Of a stretch of 64,000 nucleotides of DNA, positions 11,191-23,629 are shown piece by piece. The position numbers and the translations under genes were made by a program. The notes beneath the pieces are model-generated. The model was not told where the DNA came from. It did no database searches and saw only the letters and a list, made by a program, of their open reading frames with translations. The stretch lies in the NCBI GenBank assembly GCA_022709365.1, contig JAKLIY010000020.1, forward strand, positions 1-64,000, written 5' to 3'. Source of the stretch: Pseudomonadota bacterium. GTDB lineage: Bacteria; Pseudomonadota; Gammaproteobacteria; Competibacterales; Competibacteraceae. How positions within the stretch are numbered: position 1 is the first letter of the stretch; each line of letters opens with the position of its first letter.

Positions 11191-12108
11191 TCACACTACC
11201 CACACCAGCACGAATGGCAGTGTGATCAGCGCCAGCGCCGTTTCAACGGTGATAATCGCCGCCATTAACGACGCATCGCCGCCCATGTGCCGCGCCAGGA
11301 TGTAAGCAGCAGTCGCGCCCGGCAAGGCGGCAAAGGTGATCAATACCGCCGCTTCCAGCCGTCCCGGCTGGACGATCCAGCAGAACAACGCGGCCAGTGC
11401 CGGCAGGGCCAGCAGTTTCAAACCACTGGTCGCTACCAGCAAGCCAGGTCGCGCTAATCCATCGAGCTGTAACCCCGCGCCGACCGCCAGCAGGCCCAAC
11501 GGCAACGCGGCTCGCGCCAGAATTTCCAGCACCGCTGCTGAACCCCACGGCAGACCGATGCCGCTCACATTCAGCCCAATTCCGATGAGACACCCCAGGA
11601 TCAGCGGATTCGTCAGCAACCCCCGCAACACACCGCTAACCGTCACCATGCGATGGGCGTGGGCGCTCAGCACCAGCACGCACAACACGTTAATCATAGG
11701 AATCATGATCGCCATGACCAACGCCGCCACCGTGCCGCCCTCGGCATGAAACACCGCCAGCACCACCGCCAGTCCTACATAGGTATTGAAGCGAATGACT
11801 CCCTGATAGACTGAAGTAAACGCCGGTCCATCCACGTTCAGCCAGGATCGCAAGGCATAAACCAGCGCGGTCATGGTCAGCAACAGCGCGACGATGATTA
11901 ACGCCACCGGCAGCACCGCATAATCGCCTAATCGGGACAACGCCAACCGATGCACCAGCAGCGCCGGAAACAGGATGAAATAGGTAAAACGCTCCGCCGT
12001 GGGCCAGAATCCATCACCGGGAAAGCCGAACTGCCGTAAACCCAGTCCTAACAAAATCAACGTAAAAATGGGTCCCAGAGCGCCGAGGATCAGGGACAGA
12101 TTGTTCAT
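11191..12108 (-). CDS. AEC-family (auxin efflux carrier type) permease
   Basis: This 305-aa, highly hydrophobic protein has about ten membrane segments and starts MNNLSLILGALGPIFTLILLG. It resembles the AEC/malonate-type transporters, with a central break between two five-helix halves, and PGATAAYILARHMGGD near the end is typical of the family. Substrates in this family range from auxins to organic acids, so none can be named. Its ATG overlaps the argE stop by 4 bp, which suggests co-translation with argE. The cob genes follow on the same strand. Confidence 0.85.
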   Translation of the reverse strand: MNNLSLILGALGPIFTLILLGLGLRQFGFPGDGFWPTAERFTYFILFPALLVHRLALSRLGDYAVLPVALIIVALLLTMTALVYALRSWLNVDGPAFTSVYQGVIRFNTYVGLAVVLAVFHAEGGTVAALVMAIMIPMINVLCVLVLSAHAHRMVTVSGVLRGLLTNPLILGCLIGIGLNVSGIGLPWGSAAVLEILARAALPLGLLAVGAGLQLDGLARPGLLVATSGLKLLALPALAALFCWIVQPGRLEAAVLITFAALPGATAAYILARHMGGDASLMAAIITVETALALITLPFVLVWVV

Positions 12109-13265
12109 ACCGATTGCACACACAACCGCCGGATCAGTCCCTGCAAGATGTCCAGCGTCGGCTGAATCGCCGCCAGCGGCAGAAATTCATCCGGCTGATG
12201 CGCACAATCCACGCTGCCGGGACCGAGAATCACCGTTTCCATACCCAGTGCGTTCAGATACGGCCCCTCGGTGCCGAACCCGACAACGCCTGCCGGCGTG
12301 CCAGTCAATTCTTCCGTCGCCCGGACAATGGCGGCGGACGCCGGCGTCTCCATGGCCTCGATGCCCGGAAACAGCGGCAGGAAACTTAATTGCAATTCGC
12401 TGTCGGCGAGCCGGCGCTGCAATCGACTTTGCAATTCCTCGCGTAAGCCGTCCAGCGTCATCCCTGGCAAGGGTCGAATATCGATATGCAGTTCGCAATC
12501 GGCGCAAATCCGGTTGGGATTGTCACCGCCGTGAATGTGTCCCAAATTAAGCGTGGGTACTTCAATCTCAAACAATGGATTGCGATAACGCGCCTGCAAT
12601 TCTGCCCGCCAGCGCAGCAACTCACCGATCACTGCATACATGCCTTCCAGCGCGTTCACGCCTAATGCCGGATTGCTGGAATGCCCGGAGCGGCCCTCCA
12701 GACGAATCGCTTCCATCAGAATGCCCTTATGCATTCGCACCGGTTTCAGCCCGGTCGGCTCACCGATCACCGCATGGCGTCCTAGTGGTTCACCCGCCGC
12801 CGCCAGCGCCCGTGCGCCGCACATACTGCTTTCCTCATCGGCGGTCGCCAGAATCACCAGTGGCTGGCGTAGATCACCGGCGGCAAACTCCCTGGTCGCT
12901 TCAATCGCCAGCGCCAGAAAGGACTTCATATCGGCGGAACCCAGCCCATACATCCGCTCATCGGCGATCACACCGCCAAATGGATCAAACCGCCAGCGAC
13001 CGGCATCGAACGGTACGGTATCGGTATGGCCGGCCAGCACCAATCCGCCCGGCCCGCTGCCCAGCGTCGCGATCAGGTTCGCCTTGCCCGGCCAATCCGG
13101 TAACGGCTCGATTCGCACGGCAAAACCGGCATCTTCCAACCAGTTTGCTAACAAGTCGATGACCGGCCGATTACTCTGATCAAATTGCGGCGACACACTG
13201 CTCACCGAAGGGGTGGCGATCAATTGGCGGATACGTTCCAACAGCAAGGATGACGGGGTTGACAT
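12105..13265 (-). CDS. argE: Acetylornithine deacetylase (M20 peptidase family)
   Basis: Started at MSTPSSLLLERIRQL (13265) the protein is 386 aa, the normal ArgE size. M20 metal-ligand motifs are visible: LAGHTDTVP (His and Asp), GSADMKSFLAL, ATADEESSMCGA (catalytic Glu pair) and VIGEPTGLKPV, with a final metal His at GSVDCAHQPDEFL. It removes the acetyl group from N-acetylornithine to give ornithine in arginine synthesis. It heads a minus-strand run leading through the AEC permease to the cob genes and faces the divergent GNAT/C39 gene across 160 bp. Confidence 0.92.
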   Translation of the reverse strand: MSTPSSLLLERIRQLIATPSVSSVSPQFDQSNRPVIDLLANWLEDAGFAVRIEPLPDWPGKANLIATLGSGPGGLVLAGHTDTVPFDAGRWRFDPFGGVIADERMYGLGSADMKSFLALAIEATREFAAGDLRQPLVILATADEESSMCGARALAAAGEPLGRHAVIGEPTGLKPVRMHKGILMEAIRLEGRSGHSSNPALGVNALEGMYAVIGELLRWRAELQARYRNPLFEIEVPTLNLGHIHGGDNPNRICADCELHIDIRPLPGMTLDGLREELQSRLQRRLADSELQLSFLPLFPGIEAMETPASAAIVRATEELTGTPAGVVGFGTEGPYLNALGMETVILGPGSVDCAHQPDEFLPLAAIQPTLDILQGLIRRLCVQSV

Positions 13266-13425
13266 AATGATTTTCACTGGCGATAGCGGTTGATACGAGC
13301 GATAATAACAACATTCGCTGATTGGTACCCCGCGCTTGTCCCCGGCCCTTGTCGCCAAGCCGTTTCGCCCATCCCCGCTGTTTCATCGCCTATGGCTTCC
13401 GCCGGTAGAATCGTCTTAAACCGCT

Positions 13426-14553
13426 ATGCTGCGCCACGCTACTCTGGATGATCTGTCGGCCCTGCTGGTCATTGAAAATCACTGTTTCAACACGGATCGA
13501 CTTTCCCGCCGCAGCTTTCGCCACCTGTTGACCCGAGGCCACGCCGTCACCCTACTCGAGGAAGATGTGGGGCGGATTCGCGGCTATGTGCTGCTGCTGT
13601 TCTCACGCGGCACGTCCATGGCGCGGTTGTACTCCATTGCGGTTCATCCCGACTTTGCCCGCCATAAGATCGGCGACCGCCTCCTGGAAGCGGCGGAAGC
13701 GGCGGCGCTGGAACGCGACTGCGTGTCGATGCGGCTGGAAGTACGCCGCGATAATCCCCCCTCACTCAAACTGTTCCATCGCCACGGCTACCGCCCGTTC
13801 AAGGAAGTACTGGACTATTACGAAGACCACATGGCCGCGCTGCGTTTCGAAAAGCGCCTGGCTCCGCAACTCGGACTCGATCTGGTCAAAGTCCCGTACT
13901 ATCAGCAAACCCTCGATTTCACCTGTGGGCCGGCGGCGTTGATGATGGCGATGAAGGCATTGGACCCGGCGCTCGAATTGAACCGCACGCTGGAACTGCG
14001 GCTTTGGCGCGAGGCTACTACCATTTTCATGACCTCCGGCCATGGTGGTTGTGGTCCCTACGGACTGGCGCTGTCGGCCTATCGGCGCGGTTTTGGTCTG
14101 GAAATCCACGTCAACGAAGATGGGACATTCCTGGTCGACTCAGTACGCAGCCCGGAAAAGAAGGAAGTCATGCGGCTCGTACAGGAGGACTGGATTGAAG
14201 AACTGCGCCAATTGCCGGTCGTACTGCGCTGCGGCAGCCTGGGCGTCGACGAATTGCGGCAAAAGTTCGAGGCGGGCGGCATTCCCCTGGTGCTGATCAG
14301 TTCCTATCGCATCTACGGCGAACGCTTCCCACACTGGGTGGTCGTCACCGGCTTCGACGATCATTACATCTATGTCCATGATCCCTTGGTCGATACCGAG
14401 GAAGGCGAAACCGTTGCCGACTCGGTCAACATGCCGATCCCGCACCGCGAATTTCAGCGCATGGCCCGTTACGGCAAGGCCGCGCAAAAAGCCGTCCTCA
14501 TTCTCTATCGATCCAACCGCCGATGCGAATCGGCGGCGCCATCACTGTCTTAA
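13426..14553 (+). CDS. GNAT acetyltransferase fused to a C39-like peptidase domain
   Basis: This is a two-domain 375-aa protein. Residues 1-150 form a RimI-like GNAT fold (ARLYSIAVHPDFARHKIGDRLLEAAE is the acetyl-CoA loop region, followed by LFHRHGYRPF). Residues ~155-365 form a C39-like cysteine peptidase fold, with Cys in DFTCGPAALMMAM and a His-Asp side in HWVVVTGFDDHYIYVHDP. The fusion suggests cleavage and acetylation of the same peptide or protein. It lies 37 bp before a RimK-type ATP-grasp ligase on the same strand, so the two likely act together in a peptide tailoring pathway. The substrate is unknown. Confidence 0.85.
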   Translation: MLRHATLDDLSALLVIENHCFNTDRLSRRSFRHLLTRGHAVTLLEEDVGRIRGYVLLLFSRGTSMARLYSIAVHPDFARHKIGDRLLEAAEAAALERDCVSMRLEVRRDNPPSLKLFHRHGYRPFKEVLDYYEDHMAALRFEKRLAPQLGLDLVKVPYYQQTLDFTCGPAALMMAMKALDPALELNRTLELRLWREATTIFMTSGHGGCGPYGLALSAYRRGFGLEIHVNEDGTFLVDSVRSPEKKEVMRLVQEDWIEELRQLPVVLRCGSLGVDELRQKFEAGGIPLVLISSYRIYGERFPHWVVVTGFDDHYIYVHDPLVDTEEGETVADSVNMPIPHREFQRMARYGKAAQKAVLILYRSNRRCESAAPSLS

Positions 14554-14590
14554 CTTCATTTTCTGGCGTCAGGAGCGCCGCTTCACCTCG

Positions 14591-16072
14591 ATGGCTGATC
14601 ACATTATTCTGGTGGAAAATCCCACCGACTGGAAAACCCATTTCCCTAAACTGCCTGTTGTCGCCGCCAAGGATTATCTGGCCAAGCCCGAATATTCTTC
14701 CGCTGGCCGCAGCTTGCGGGTGCTGAATCTGTGTCGCAGCTACCGCTACTTGAGCGTCGGGTATTACTGCTCGCTGCTGGCCGAAGCCCGCCGCCACCGG
14801 GTCATTCCCAGCGTGCGCACCCTCAATGACCTGAGCCGCAAGTCGATCTACAGTCTCGATATCGAGGACCTGGACGATCATGTCCAGCAGGTGTTGGGCA
14901 AACCCCGTCCCGGTTTCAACGCGACGGGGTTTGAGCTGGACATTTTCTTTGGTCAATGCGCGGTCAAGGAATTGCAGGAACTGGCCCGGCAACTGTTCGA
15001 TGCTTTCCGCTCGCCGTTGCTGCGGGTGGAATTCCGGCTGCAAGGCAAATGGCGCATCGCCACGCTCAAGGCCCTGCACCTGCACTCGCTGTCCGCCGAA
15101 CAGGACGAGATGTTTCTCGGTGCGCTGGCCACCTATCTCAGCCGGCGCTGGCGGCAACCCCGGGCGCGCAGCAACTACCGCTACGATTTGGCGGTGCTGC
15201 ACAATCCCAAGGAGGAAATGCCGCCCTCCAACCTCAAGGCCCTGCAACAGTTCATCAAGGCGGGCCGTGAAGGGGGGGTGAACGTCGAATTGATCGAGAA
15301 GAAGGATTACGGACGGCTGGCCGAGTTCGATGCGTTGTTTATCCGCGAAACCACCGGCATTGACCACTACACCTACCAGTTCGCCAAAAAGGCCGAAAGC
15401 GAAGGCATGGTGGTCATCGACGATTCAGATTCCATTCTCAAATGCACCAACAAGGTGTATCTGGATGAATTGCTGCGAATGCATCGCATCCGCACTCCCA
15501 AAACCGTGATCGTTCGCCGCGATAACCTGGAACGGGTGGACAGCGAGATTCACTATCCCATCGTGCTGAAAATTCCCGACGGTTCCTTCTCGCGCGGCGT
15601 TTTCAAAGTCAGCGACCGCGCCGAACTGCTGGAAATGGCTAGCAAGCTGTTCAAGTCCTCCGATCTGTTGCTGGCCCAGGAATTTCTCTACACCGAATTT
15701 GACTGGCGGGTGGGGATTCTCAATAAGACTCCACTGTTTGTTTGCCAGTACTTCATGTCCGGGGAGCACTGGCAAATCTATCATCATGAGTCGGGTCAGG
15801 GACGTGGCGTTCGCGAGGGCGACGCTAAAACCTTCCGGGTCGAGGATGCACCGGAGATTGTGGTCAAAAGCGCTGCTCGGGCGGCTAATCTGATTGGCAA
15901 CGGCTTTTACGGCGTGGACTTGAAGCAGACAGCCAAAGGCGTGGTGGTCATCGAAGTGAACGATAATCCCAACATCGATTACGGTGTTGAAGATGTTGTT
16001 CTCAAAGAGGAGCTTTACCGGAAGATCATTGAGGATTTCGTCTGGCGGTTGGATCGGAAGCGGGGGAAGTGA
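14591..16072 (+). CDS. RimK-family ATP-grasp ligase with extended N-terminal domain
   Basis: The start MADHIILVENPTDW at 14591 gives 493 aa. The first ~200 residues match the N-terminal domain found ahead of RimK-like ATP-grasp enzymes (NLCRSYRYLSVGYYCSLLAEARRHRVIPSV). The ATP-grasp core follows, with VVIDDSDSILKCTNKVYLDELL, the nucleotide-binding YPIVLKIPDGSFSRGVFKV and the metal-binding end VVVIEVNDNPNIDYG. Such enzymes add amino acids, often glutamate, to a carboxylate. Pairing with the upstream GNAT/C39 protein is probably functional. The acceptor is unknown. Confidence 0.88.
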   Translation: MADHIILVENPTDWKTHFPKLPVVAAKDYLAKPEYSSAGRSLRVLNLCRSYRYLSVGYYCSLLAEARRHRVIPSVRTLNDLSRKSIYSLDIEDLDDHVQQVLGKPRPGFNATGFELDIFFGQCAVKELQELARQLFDAFRSPLLRVEFRLQGKWRIATLKALHLHSLSAEQDEMFLGALATYLSRRWRQPRARSNYRYDLAVLHNPKEEMPPSNLKALQQFIKAGREGGVNVELIEKKDYGRLAEFDALFIRETTGIDHYTYQFAKKAESEGMVVIDDSDSILKCTNKVYLDELLRMHRIRTPKTVIVRRDNLERVDSEIHYPIVLKIPDGSFSRGVFKVSDRAELLEMASKLFKSSDLLLAQEFLYTEFDWRVGILNKTPLFVCQYFMSGEHWQIYHHESGQGRGVREGDAKTFRVEDAPEIVVKSAARAANLIGNGFYGVDLKQTAKGVVVIEVNDNPNIDYGVEDVVLKEELYRKIIEDFVWRLDRKRGK

Positions 16073-20763: not shown

Positions 20764-21213
20764 TTAGAAGGGGGTCTGCGCTGGCTGGCGGTCGGGGATC
20801 AGTGCGCAACCGTGACCATAGTGATACTGCAAGGTCTGCCAGACTTCGAAGAAATACTGGTGGGATTCTTCATCGCTCATTTCTGGGGGAGCCGCTTCGA
20901 CGCCGACCGGATCGAGTACGGCCAGAGTATTGCCAGGCGTAGGCAGGTGGCGGGCATCGAGCAGAGCAACTGCTTGGTGTGCATAGCCACCATTTTCCTG
21001 TTCGCCAACGCCGATCCGATACAGCCGAAATCCCTTCATCCGCGCCATCCGTGGGAGGTAGTGGAGCAGACGGCGAGCAGTGCCGTCGTCGGTGGTTGCG
21101 CTGTCATTAAAGCCAAAACTGGTGTAGACGTCATCAATCCGGCGCAGCTCATTGGCTTTATCGGGATCAATACTCTCAAACTGCTGGGCGATTTGCTGCA
21201 AAACACTGGGCAT
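20764..21213 (-). CDS. Conserved-looking hypothetical protein, 149 aa
   Basis: I do not recognise this family. The ATG at 21213 has a GAGG site at normal distance. The protein is soluble and mixed alpha/beta (LRRIDDVYTSFGF, KGFRLYRIGVGEQENGGYAHQAVALLD) and ends with an acidic helix (EMSDEESHQYFFEVWQTLQYHYG) and a short tail. Codon use is like the host's. It has its own terminator downstream (20705-20741) and is separated from grxD upstream by 255 bp, so it is probably transcribed alone. Confidence 0.65.
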   Translation of the reverse strand: MPSVLQQIAQQFESIDPDKANELRRIDDVYTSFGFNDSATTDDGTARRLLHYLPRMARMKGFRLYRIGVGEQENGGYAHQAVALLDARHLPTPGNTLAVLDPVGVEAAPPEMSDEESHQYFFEVWQTLQYHYGHGCALIPDRQPAQTPF

Positions 21214-21468: not shown

Positions 21469-21804
21469 TCAGGATGGAGCCGTATTAGCCCGGGCCACGG
21501 CCTCTTCCATGAGTTTCTGCAATTCACCACTTTGGTATAGTTCCAGGGTAATGTCGCAACCGCCGACCAGCTCGCTATCGATGTAAATCTGCGGGAAAGT
21601 CGGCCAGTCAGCGTAGCGCGGCAGGTTGTCGAAGATGTCCGGGTCTTCCAGCACGTTGAAATAGGCGAATGGCAGACCGGTGGCGGCCAGCGCTTGGGAT
21701 GCGCGCAGCGAGAAACCACAGCGCGGTGCTTCCGGGGTACCCTTCATGTAGATCACGACCGGGTTGGATTCAACTTGTTGCTTGATGCGTTCCAAAGCGT
21801 CCAT
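21469..21804 (-). CDS. grxD: Monothiol glutaredoxin (CGFS type)
   Basis: This 111-aa protein has the defining MKGTPEAPRCGFS motif near residue 29, then WPTFPQIYIDSELVGGCDI with the glutathione-binding TFPQ and GGCD. CGFS glutaredoxins bind a bridging [2Fe-2S] cluster with glutathione and hand it on in iron-sulfur assembly. It lies 31 bp downstream of the amidotransferase on the same strand. Length is standard. Confidence 0.96.
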   Translation of the reverse strand: MDALERIKQQVESNPVVIYMKGTPEAPRCGFSLRASQALAATGLPFAYFNVLEDPDIFDNLPRYADWPTFPQIYIDSELVGGCDITLELYQSGELQKLMEEAVARANTAPS

Positions 21805-21835: not shown

Positions 21836-23629
21836 TCAACCATTGACCCGCGTTGCCGGGTCGACGTTCAGTTGCAGCCACAGTTCCAGCAGCGCCGAAT
21901 GCCACAGCTTACTGCCCATCAGCCGGGTATGATGCGCCTCGGGTTCAGCCAGCAGTCGATCCAGGTAGTTCCGCTGGAACAGGCCGCGTTCCCGGCAGGC
22001 GCGTGAATTGACCGTATCGCGCATGAACTCCAGGAAGGACCCACGCACGAATTTAAGCGCTGGCACTGGAAAATAGCCTTTAGGCCGGTCGATCACCGCA
22101 TCGGGCAACAAGCCCTGGGCAATTTTTTTCAAGAGGTGCTTGCCGCCGCTGCCGATTTTCAGTTCCGGCGGCAGTTGCATGGCCAGTTCCACCAATTCGT
22201 GATCGAGGAACGGCACTCGCGCTTCCAGTCCCCAGGCCATCGTCATGTTATCCACTCGTTTAACCGGATCATCGACGATCAACGTGGTGACATCCAGCCG
22301 CAGCACTTGATCCAGGTAATCATCCGCGCCGGGTTCCGCCAGTCGTTGCGCGATCAATCCGGCGGTGTGGTCGGGACCGTGGTAAGCGGGTGCGACTGTT
22401 TCCAGAAACTCGGTATGATCGCGGTCGAAGTAATGCCGCCGGAATCGCTCCAGATCGCTCCCCGTTTCCGCCACCATGCGCGGATACCAGAAATAGCCGC
22501 CGAACACTTCATCGGCGCCCTGACCGCTCTGTACGACCTTGACAGTTTTTGACACTTGTTCGGCCAGCAGGAAAAACGCGACGGCATCTTGCCCAACCAT
22601 CGGTTCGGCCATGCAGGTCACCGCTTCCGGCAGGCGTTTCAGTACCTGATCATTGGGAATCAGATACTTGTGATGACGGGTCTGGTAGCGGGCGGCGACT
22701 GGATCGGAATATTCAAACTCGCTGCCCTTCTCCTCCGGCTGGTCCTCGAAACCGACTGAGAAGGTCAGCAAATCGCGCACCCCGGATTCAGCCAGCAGCG
22801 CGACCAACAGGCTGGAATCCAGCCCCCCGGACAGCAGCACACCGACCGGCACATCGGCGATGTCCAGTCGCCGCCGTACCGCCAGGCGCAGAGCGTCATG
22901 CACCACCTGGGTCCATTCCGCCTCGGTGCGCGGTTGCGCGGGACGCTGAGCGGTCAGTCGCCAATAGGTTCGACTCCGTTCATTCCCCTGGGCGTCAATC
23001 GTCAGAGTCGTAGCCGGAGCCAGCTTGCGAACGCCTTGCAGAAGGGTGCGCGGTGCGGGGATAACCGCATGGAGGGTCAACTGGTGATGCAACGCCACCG
23101 GATCGATGGCGGTATCGACATCGGGCGCAGCCAGCAGCGCCTGACTGTTGGAAGCGAAGCGGAAGGCGCACGGTGTCCGGCTGTAGTACAGCGGTTTGAT
23201 GCCCAGCCGGTCGCGGGCGAGAAACAGGGTGCGTTCGCACAGGTTCCAAAGAGCGAAGGCGAACATGCCGATGAGATGCTCAACACACTGTTCGCCCCAT
23301 TCCGCGTAGGCTTTGAGGATGACCTCGGTGTCGCCTTCGGAGAAAAAGCGGTAGCCCCGGCTTTGCAATTCCCGCCGCAGTTCCCGGTAGTTGTAAATGG
23401 CGCCGTTGAATACCAACGCCAGTCCCAGCTCGGCATCGATCATCGGCTGGTTGGAACGGTCGCTGAGGTCGATCACCGACAGCCGGCGATGGCCGAACAG
23501 CAGGGGACCGTCGGACCAGGTTCCTTCGTGATCGGGACCACGCCGGGCCAGTCGCGTCAGCATCCGCCCCATCAGGGCCAAGTCAGGTTCGCCGCCGTCC
23601 AGGCGCAATTCGCCGCTAATGCCGCACAT
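21836..23629 (-). CDS. AsnB-type glutamine amidotransferase, closest to the N-acetylglutaminylglutamine amide (AsnO) group
   Basis: This 597-aa protein begins MCGISGE, so Cys2 is the N-terminal glutaminase nucleophile. The class II domain (FNGAIYNYRELR, SEGDTEVILKAY) is followed by the synthetase domain with SGGLDSS (PP-loop), SGQGADEVFGGYFWYP and DNMTMAWGLEARVPFLDHELVELA. The late part (RPKGYFPVPALKFVRG, MGSKLWHSALLELWLQ) reminds me more of AsnO, which amidates an N-acetylated dipeptide osmolyte, than of plain asparagine synthetase. The usual partner genes (GNAT/ATP-grasp synthetase, peptidase) are not adjacent, so asparagine synthesis remains possible. Confidence 0.8.
   Translation of the reverse strand: MCGISGELRLDGGEPDLALMGRMLTRLARRGPDHEGTWSDGPLLFGHRRLSVIDLSDRSNQPMIDAELGLALVFNGAIYNYRELRRELQSRGYRFFSEGDTEVILKAYAEWGEQCVEHLIGMFAFALWNLCERTLFLARDRLGIKPLYYSRTPCAFRFASNSQALLAAPDVDTAIDPVALHHQLTLHAVIPAPRTLLQGVRKLAPATTLTIDAQGNERSRTYWRLTAQRPAQPRTEAEWTQVVHDALRLAVRRRLDIADVPVGVLLSGGLDSSLLVALLAESGVRDLLTFSVGFEDQPEEKGSEFEYSDPVAARYQTRHHKYLIPNDQVLKRLPEAVTCMAEPMVGQDAVAFFLLAEQVSKTVKVVQSGQGADEVFGGYFWYPRMVAETGSDLERFRRHYFDRDHTEFLETVAPAYHGPDHTAGLIAQRLAEPGADDYLDQVLRLDVTTLIVDDPVKRVDNMTMAWGLEARVPFLDHELVELAMQLPPELKIGSGGKHLLKKIAQGLLPDAVIDRPKGYFPVPALKFVRGSFLEFMRDTVNSRACRERGLFQRNYLDRLLAEPEAHHTRLMGSKLWHSALLELWLQLNVDPATRVNG

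Follow-up and report, generated by a model that had tools for sequence, protein, structure and literature searches.

The window considered here, a stretch of 64,000 nucleotides that forms part of a 72.5-kb contig in a 4.16-Mb genome of the Competibacteraceae, carries two adjacent genes whose products are designated P0001 and P0002. The genes lie on the forward strand at 13426-14553 and 14591-16072 with 37 bp between them, exactly the coordinates, strand and gap given in an earlier note on this DNA, and the genome holds a single copy of the pair. The features of the locus are as follows:

12105-13358, minus strand: argE (acetylornithine deacetylase), a divergent neighbour not claimed as a component
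13426-14553, plus strand: GNAT–DUF3335 (C39-like) fusion protein P0001, 375 aa (ORF, Pfam, AlphaFold model)
13426-13863, plus strand: GNAT domain of P0001, residues 1-146 by fold match, in which the Glu of 'LEVR' and both Tyr of the YY motif are present and the acetyl-CoA loop reads ARHKIG
13891-14505, plus strand: DUF3335 papain-like/C39-like domain, residues 156-360, with Gln161, Cys167 and His303 invariant and Asp or Glu at Asp319
14554-14590, plus strand: intergenic gap of 37 bp (direct reading)
14591-16072, plus strand: RLAN–RimK-type ATP-grasp ligase P0002, 493 aa (ORF, Pfam, AlphaFold model)
14666-15118, plus strand: RLAN domain (PF14401), residues 26-176 (Pfam)
15302-15976, plus strand: ATP-grasp ligase domain, with Lys288, Lys327, Arg373, Asp443, Glu455 and Asn457 unchanged across all 40 homologues

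The earlier note had read the first gene as an acetyltransferase joined to a C39-like peptidase, and profile searches bear out both halves. P0001 matches the GNAT family PF00583 over residues 31-122 (E 2.5e-14; 54.0 bits against a Pfam cut-off of 20.7) and DUF3335, PF11814 'Peptidase_C39 like', over residues 156-360 (E 2.7e-86; 288.8 bits against a cut-off of 25), and with 35.2 bits it also exceeds the cut-off of 24 for PF13529, Peptidase_C39_2. Among 36 aligned homologues of the DUF3335 domain, Gln161, Cys167 and His303 are invariant (36/36) and position 319 is either Asp or Glu; as judged from this alignment, the expected C39 catalytic residues are retained in P0001. A sequence search found no solved structure of DUF3335. 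In the AlphaFold model of P0001 (mean pLDDT 91.3), the GNAT half superposes on Ard1/RimI-type Nα-acetyltransferases with Z scores of 22-23, the best match in the fold search, whose listed matches cover residues 1-149, being Ard1 itself (Z 23.3, rmsd 1.2 over 143 positions).

Downstream of the 37-bp gap, the ATP-grasp ligase with a special N-terminal domain was also correctly recognized, and that domain can be named as RLAN (PF14401, E 4.2e-52; 176.2 bits against a cut-off of 25, residues 26-176), presumed to be a substrate-recognition domain. A sequence search likewise found no solved structure of RLAN, and residues 125-207 of P0002 give weak matches to AAC(3) GNATs (E 0.002 in one search, 0.13 in another). 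The remainder of P0002 is a RimK-type ATP-grasp domain (PF08443, 31.2 bits against a cut-off of 21) that, in an AlphaFold model with a mean pLDDT of 87.2, superposes on ArgX, LysX and RimK with Z scores of 26-28. The best fold matches reach Z 27.9, with rmsd 2.5 over 266 and 2.2 over 265 positions (residues 198-490), among listed matches that cover residues 194-492. The ATP and Mg ligands and the catalytic Arg, namely K288, K327, R373, D443, E455 and N457, are invariant in all 40 ligase homologues, and D443, E455 and N457 align with the LysX/ArgX chain. P0001 scores 63.7 bits against TIGR01575 (RimI, the S18 acetyltransferase), under the NCBIfam cut-off of 86.4, and P0002 scores 76.2 bits against TIGR00768 (rimK_fam, the RimK α-L-glutamate ligase), under the cut-off of 143.4; because neither cut-off is reached, a substrate cannot be transferred to the pair from RimI or RimK. 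The two-gene unit is real, conserved and probably catalytic, of a kind already known but uncharacterised. A 2009 treatment by Iyer et al. reportedly covers RLAN ligases and related operons, and for this reason the RLAN–DUF3335 pairing is not claimed here as new.

The association between the two genes extends well beyond the window. An even draw of 299 Pseudomonadota genomes, used for both searches, contains RLAN in 56 genomes, DUF3335 in 47 and both in 46 (Fisher p 4e-43, uncorrected for kinship), and in 44 of these 46 the two genes are adjacent. The adjacent pairs comprise 27 with the GNAT-C39 gene ahead of RLAN, 3 with RLAN ahead of GNAT-C39, 13 divergent and 1 convergent. Because adjacency is kept in four arrangements, chance synteny is unlikely, and functional coupling of the two genes is supported. 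Separation of the pair is not a regular occurrence among relatives, being confined to G006 and G193. The earlier description of the set as core-like is borne out in part, RLAN being found in 29 of 39 genomes from the family of the window but in 56 of 299 from the phylum sample. The closest named records to P0001, at 82-89% identity, are from Competibacteraceae. Other carriers of the pair include a laboratory strain of Azospirillum brasilense (L154) and Marichromatium (L086), and DUF3335 occurs in Methanosarcina acetivorans as well. Plasmid copies are represented by 13 records, 11 of them covering at least 80% of the query; a link to phages was set aside, the 16 phage records matching the ATP-grasp half only.

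Which part of P0001 accompanies the ligase was addressed with a profile built from the GNAT halves of the fusions (excluding three DUF3335 paralogues and L126) and searched against the flanks of every one of the 59 RLAN matches that the phylum survey yielded. A GNAT of the P0001 subfamily adjoins RLAN in 57 of the 59 loci, 43 of them C39-fused and 14 stand-alone, the latter matching the profile with E values of 1e-35 to 1e-52. In the remaining two, the G201 contig begins inside the DUF3335 domain, leaving its GNAT unscored, and in G193 RLAN stands alone, the GNAT-C39 gene being on a different contig. Each of the ten genomes that have RLAN and lack DUF3335 possesses the stand-alone GNAT. Where DUF3335 is unlinked from RLAN, in G006 and G193, the GNAT is still fused to it by profile match, and the DUF3335 proteins found away from RLAN in G008, G274 (one) and G197 (two) give no GNAT profile match. 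These RLAN-distant proteins lie at L127 9748-10839, L128 4636-5694 and 13689-14894, and L126 9620-10318, and three of them are extended at the N terminus by about the length of a GNAT. The ligase thus has the GNAT, and not the peptidase, as its constant partner: the presence of a GNAT in 57 of 59 loci, 14 of them without C39, defines a core of GNAT and RLAN-ligase to which the papain-like domain is an optional addition that comes and goes.

Natural fusions display the same components in other combinations. In G247 (L113), a second GNAT is fused ahead of RLAN-RimK, with a GNAT-C39 gene adjoining, and in the contig L083 of a metagenome-assembled genome, GNAT, C39, RLAN and RimK occupy one frame because the stop and the gap are missing, although this is a single such genome in which an assembly error is possible. 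An 876-codon frame in G315 is likewise continuous and may come from the same genome as L083. Outside the survey set, RLAN occurs without a neighbouring GNAT on a P. aeruginosa plasmid (L152), in Legionella adelaidensis (L153) and in G310 (L188). In the Legionella locus (L153 1-3232), a diverged RLAN ligase is followed by a GCS2-type carboxylate-amine ligase and then by an N-formylglutamate-amidohydrolase-like gene (FGase), with no GNAT seen. The genome G310, which belongs to the family of the window, measures 1.2 Mb and is listed as 100% complete, carries its RLAN at L188 6192-7856, on a 14.7-kb contig without GNAT or DUF3335.

The GNATs themselves differ in the loop that binds the pyrophosphate of acetyl-CoA, the motif of which is [RQ]xxGx[GA]. 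All 16 stand-alone or RLAN-fused GNATs have this motif intact, as do 34 of 51 C39-fused GNATs; 17 of the 51 depart from it, the window protein with its ARHKIG loop among them (Fisher p 0.007 for departure from the motif in C39-fused versus other GNATs, the rows being related and kinship uncorrected). Of the 67 GNATs, all have the Glu of 'LEVR' and 66 have the second Tyr of the YY pair. Both proteins of the window look active, with the exception of this loop, and acetylation may therefore be weak or lost here. More broadly, the loop sequences suggest that the C39-fused GNAT may be changing role in some lineages, perhaps toward substrate reading. The set of cutting, acetylating and ligating described in the earlier note is not supported as a fixed trio, since 14 of 59 RLAN loci have a GNAT without C39 and the loop in the window is off consensus; the obligatory steps therefore differ from that scheme.

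Quick trees, in which L155, L113 and L153 form long branches and which include three of the 26 Competibacteraceae-type loci other than the window, trace how the two forms of GNAT are distributed. The RLAN tree, with its 67 rows, demands at least eight changes of the stand-alone label, six of them forced by starred branches; the GNAT tree demands four. Most stand-alone and RLAN-fused GNATs fall apart from the C39-fused GNATs (94% SH-aLRT, a branch that is not starred), three of family f31 being placed elsewhere. In clade tests from which L155 was excluded, neither a single clade of stand-alone and RLAN-fused GNATs (p-AU 0.77) nor a grouping of L114 with L094 (p-AU 0.28) was rejected. Across 64 loci, distances in the RLAN and GNAT trees are correlated (r 0.72, uncontrolled for species kinship), above all 2000 permutations (maximum 0.52). 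Candidate histories are an exchange of partners, the loss of one or the other of two ancient GNATs in different lineages, and loss of C39 on several occasions.

Clustering of ORFs of at least 45 codons across 45 loci (blastp E 1e-6, half coverage) identified no third conserved partner gene and, consistent with the earlier statement that no precursor gene is adjacent, no recurring precursor or other ORF of that size beside the pair, barring frames that overlap both genes and families of few lineages. Tailoring of a ribosomally made peptide in the manner of RiPP pathways, with the precursor gene elsewhere, would draw on the occurrence of ATP-grasp and C39 enzymes in RiPP loci, as described in the accessible text of PMC8939145. 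This possibility is very improbable given that no ORF of at least 45 codons recurs as a precursor candidate, the lack of an ABC exporter fused to or beside the pair among the neighbouring ORFs of the window (read by eye), and the identity of the domain, which is DUF3335 and scores only 15.8 bits, under the cut-off of 22, against PF03412, the double-glycine leader peptidase of MEROPS C39.

Neighbours that do recur are limited to lineages: DUF155 in families f33, f34 and f3, DUF2817 in f33 and f34, and argE in the family of the window and at L084 and L092. Most Competibacteraceae loci have argE running divergently from the pair, as do L084 and L092 (G001, another family). Genes for DUF155 (RMND1/Sif2-like) and DUF2817 lie beside the pair at L104 11341-12126, L115 11600-12409 and 10392-11561, L093 11479-12270 and L096 11448-12626. 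The DUF2817 neighbour is what would be expected if the pair wrote and erased the tail of a protein in the manner of RimK and RimB, the ATP-grasp enzyme adding residues, the GNAT capping or reading them and the C39-like domain removing them, because a gene with M14-like motifs adjoins the pair in f33 (beta-like) and f34 as a tail-removing carboxypeptidase would. Such a role would also suit the nearest folds, which act on protein ends (LysX/ArgX on LysW, RimK on RpsF, RimI/Ard1 on N-termini), and has parallels in existing ligase-peptidase pairs, RimK-RimB and RloC-RloA (accessible text of PMC12239564). However, assignment of DUF2817 as a peptidase depends on the motifs HGVE and DLNRN and on a weak match with MpaA (E 0.074), no target protein recurs, and the small-molecule enzyme Ngg has the same two folds, with profile hits that include rimI and rimK_fam; fold therefore does not discriminate between a protein end and a small-molecule substrate. 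A tail writer and eraser is judged rather unlikely.

Ngg, which with AsnO belongs to the NAGGN pathway, provides a further lead. AsnO, the N-acetylglutaminylglutamine amidotransferase, is encoded in the window at 21836-23629 on the minus strand (TIGR03104, 969.6 bits against a cut-off of 570), 5.8 kb from the pair, and the window genome gives no match to Ngg (TIGR03103). The presence of AsnO and the missing Ngg raised the possibility that the pair is Ngg in split form, with the GNAT and RLAN-ligase performing the same chemistry to make an N-acetyl dipeptide for AsnO to amidate. In the phylum sample of 299, 31 genomes score above the cut-off for AsnO and 27 above that for Ngg; the four genomes with AsnO and without Ngg are G000, G069, G141 and G270, and of these only G000 has RLAN. 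AsnO is present in just 8 of 56 RLAN genomes of the sample, 7 of which have Ngg as well. Of the 39 genomes of the family, 30 exceed the cut-off for AsnO and 9 that for Ngg; five genomes (G299, G306, G319, G321 and G322) have AsnO without Ngg and without RLAN, and four others (G324, G325, G316 and G336) carry AsnO on a different contig from the pair. As a general rule the split pathway is ruled out, since it is common for genomes of the family to have AsnO but lack both Ngg and RLAN, and in none of the four genomes used for comparison does AsnO lie close to the pair; even for the window it is most improbable. A solitary AsnO is found repeatedly in the family, and downstream of it, in the same orientation, come conserved small ORFs of 111 codons (window 21469-21804) and 149 codons (20764-21213). 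G006 carries a complete AsnO-Ngg operon (L115 1396-4964) about 4 kb from its GNAT-C39 gene.

That the genes act in peptide or protein tailoring, as the earlier note proposed, is retained in the form of end-tailoring, the most economical reading of two genes so consistently coupled (adjacent in 44 of 46 genomes, in four arrangements). The reading preferred here, held tentatively and at somewhat less than even confidence, is that the GNAT and RLAN/ATP-grasp module makes a short product of peptide type, one end of which is blocked by Nα-acylation. By the chemistry and order of steps that we infer, the ATP-grasp enzyme would activate a carboxylate as an acyl-phosphate and join an amino acid to it, RLAN would pick the acceptor, and the GNAT would cap the α-amine with an acetyl group; in most lineages, though not all, the papain-like domain would hydrolyse or remodel the amide, in trimming, editing or turnover. 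Since Ngg, in the NAGGN pathway, manages with these two folds, we lean by analogy toward a small intracellular peptide as the substrate rather than a ribosomal precursor, with a protein end as a close rival. In favour of a blocked peptide-type product are the linkage, the GNAT in 57 of 59 loci, the fusions of G247 and L083, the invariant sites, the RimI/Ard1 and ArgX/LysX/RimK folds, the Ngg precedent and the tree correlation; against it are the departures in the acetyl-CoA loop, the finding of no recurring gene for a substrate, carrier or product near the pair, the RLAN loci without GNAT (G193, L152, L153 and L188) and the scores below the rimI and rimK_fam cut-offs.

A bolder and decidedly unlikely reading is that Pseudomonadota possess a hitherto unrecognised system for tagging in two directions: a loop-intact stand-alone or RLAN-fused GNAT would write together with the ligase, and the GNAT of the GNAT-C39 paralogue, in several lineages including that of the window, would be a reader guiding a papain-like eraser. 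If so, G247, with GNAT-RLAN and GNAT-C39, and G006, with both GNATs, would be the genomes that retain both halves. The pair is present in 44 of 299 sampled Pseudomonadota genomes with its active sites kept and no known product. A core of GNAT and RLAN-ligase that also occurs in natural fusions reduces what has to be sought to a single acetylation and a single ATP-dependent amide bond, assayable with two purified proteins.

The ligase domain of P0002 finds its best structural matches in LysX/ArgX, systems that use the carrier LysW, whereas the window genome gives no match to LysW (TIGR01206). RimK–RimB and RloC–RloA, described as pairs of ATP-grasp ligase and peptidase in the accessible text of PMC12239564, resemble the pair in coupling a ligase to a peptidase, but their protease is aspartic (retropepsin-like) rather than papain-like, and they have neither GNAT nor RLAN. 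Ngg, which according to the accessible text of PMC8070244 acetylates one glutamine and joins a second to it, and has a peptidase gene in its operon, is like the pair in both folds, there GNAT and ATP-grasp in one chain, and in the nearby peptidase; unlike the pair, it lacks RLAN, belongs to another ATP-grasp branch and has an amidotransferase partner. Among the RLAN–RimK-like ATP-grasp ligases (PF14401), P0002 is a full RLAN and ATP-grasp protein with every catalytic residue; literature searches, with most subscription papers outside their reach, found no member with a known substrate and no functional study of the pair. According to a survey that cites Iyer et al. 2009 (PMC10318531), proteins with DUF3335 (PF11814), from cluster I of the papain-like superfamily, frequently carry a fused GNAT domain, which might act as a peptide ligase or as an acetylating enzyme, and P0001 is the same, already published fusion; the GNAT-RLAN core, the stand-alone GNATs and the GNAT-RLAN fusion do not appear in the accessible text of PMC10318531. 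Thus, with the GNAT-DUF3335 fusion already in print, the additions made here are the GNAT-RLAN core and the optional nature of its C39 domain.
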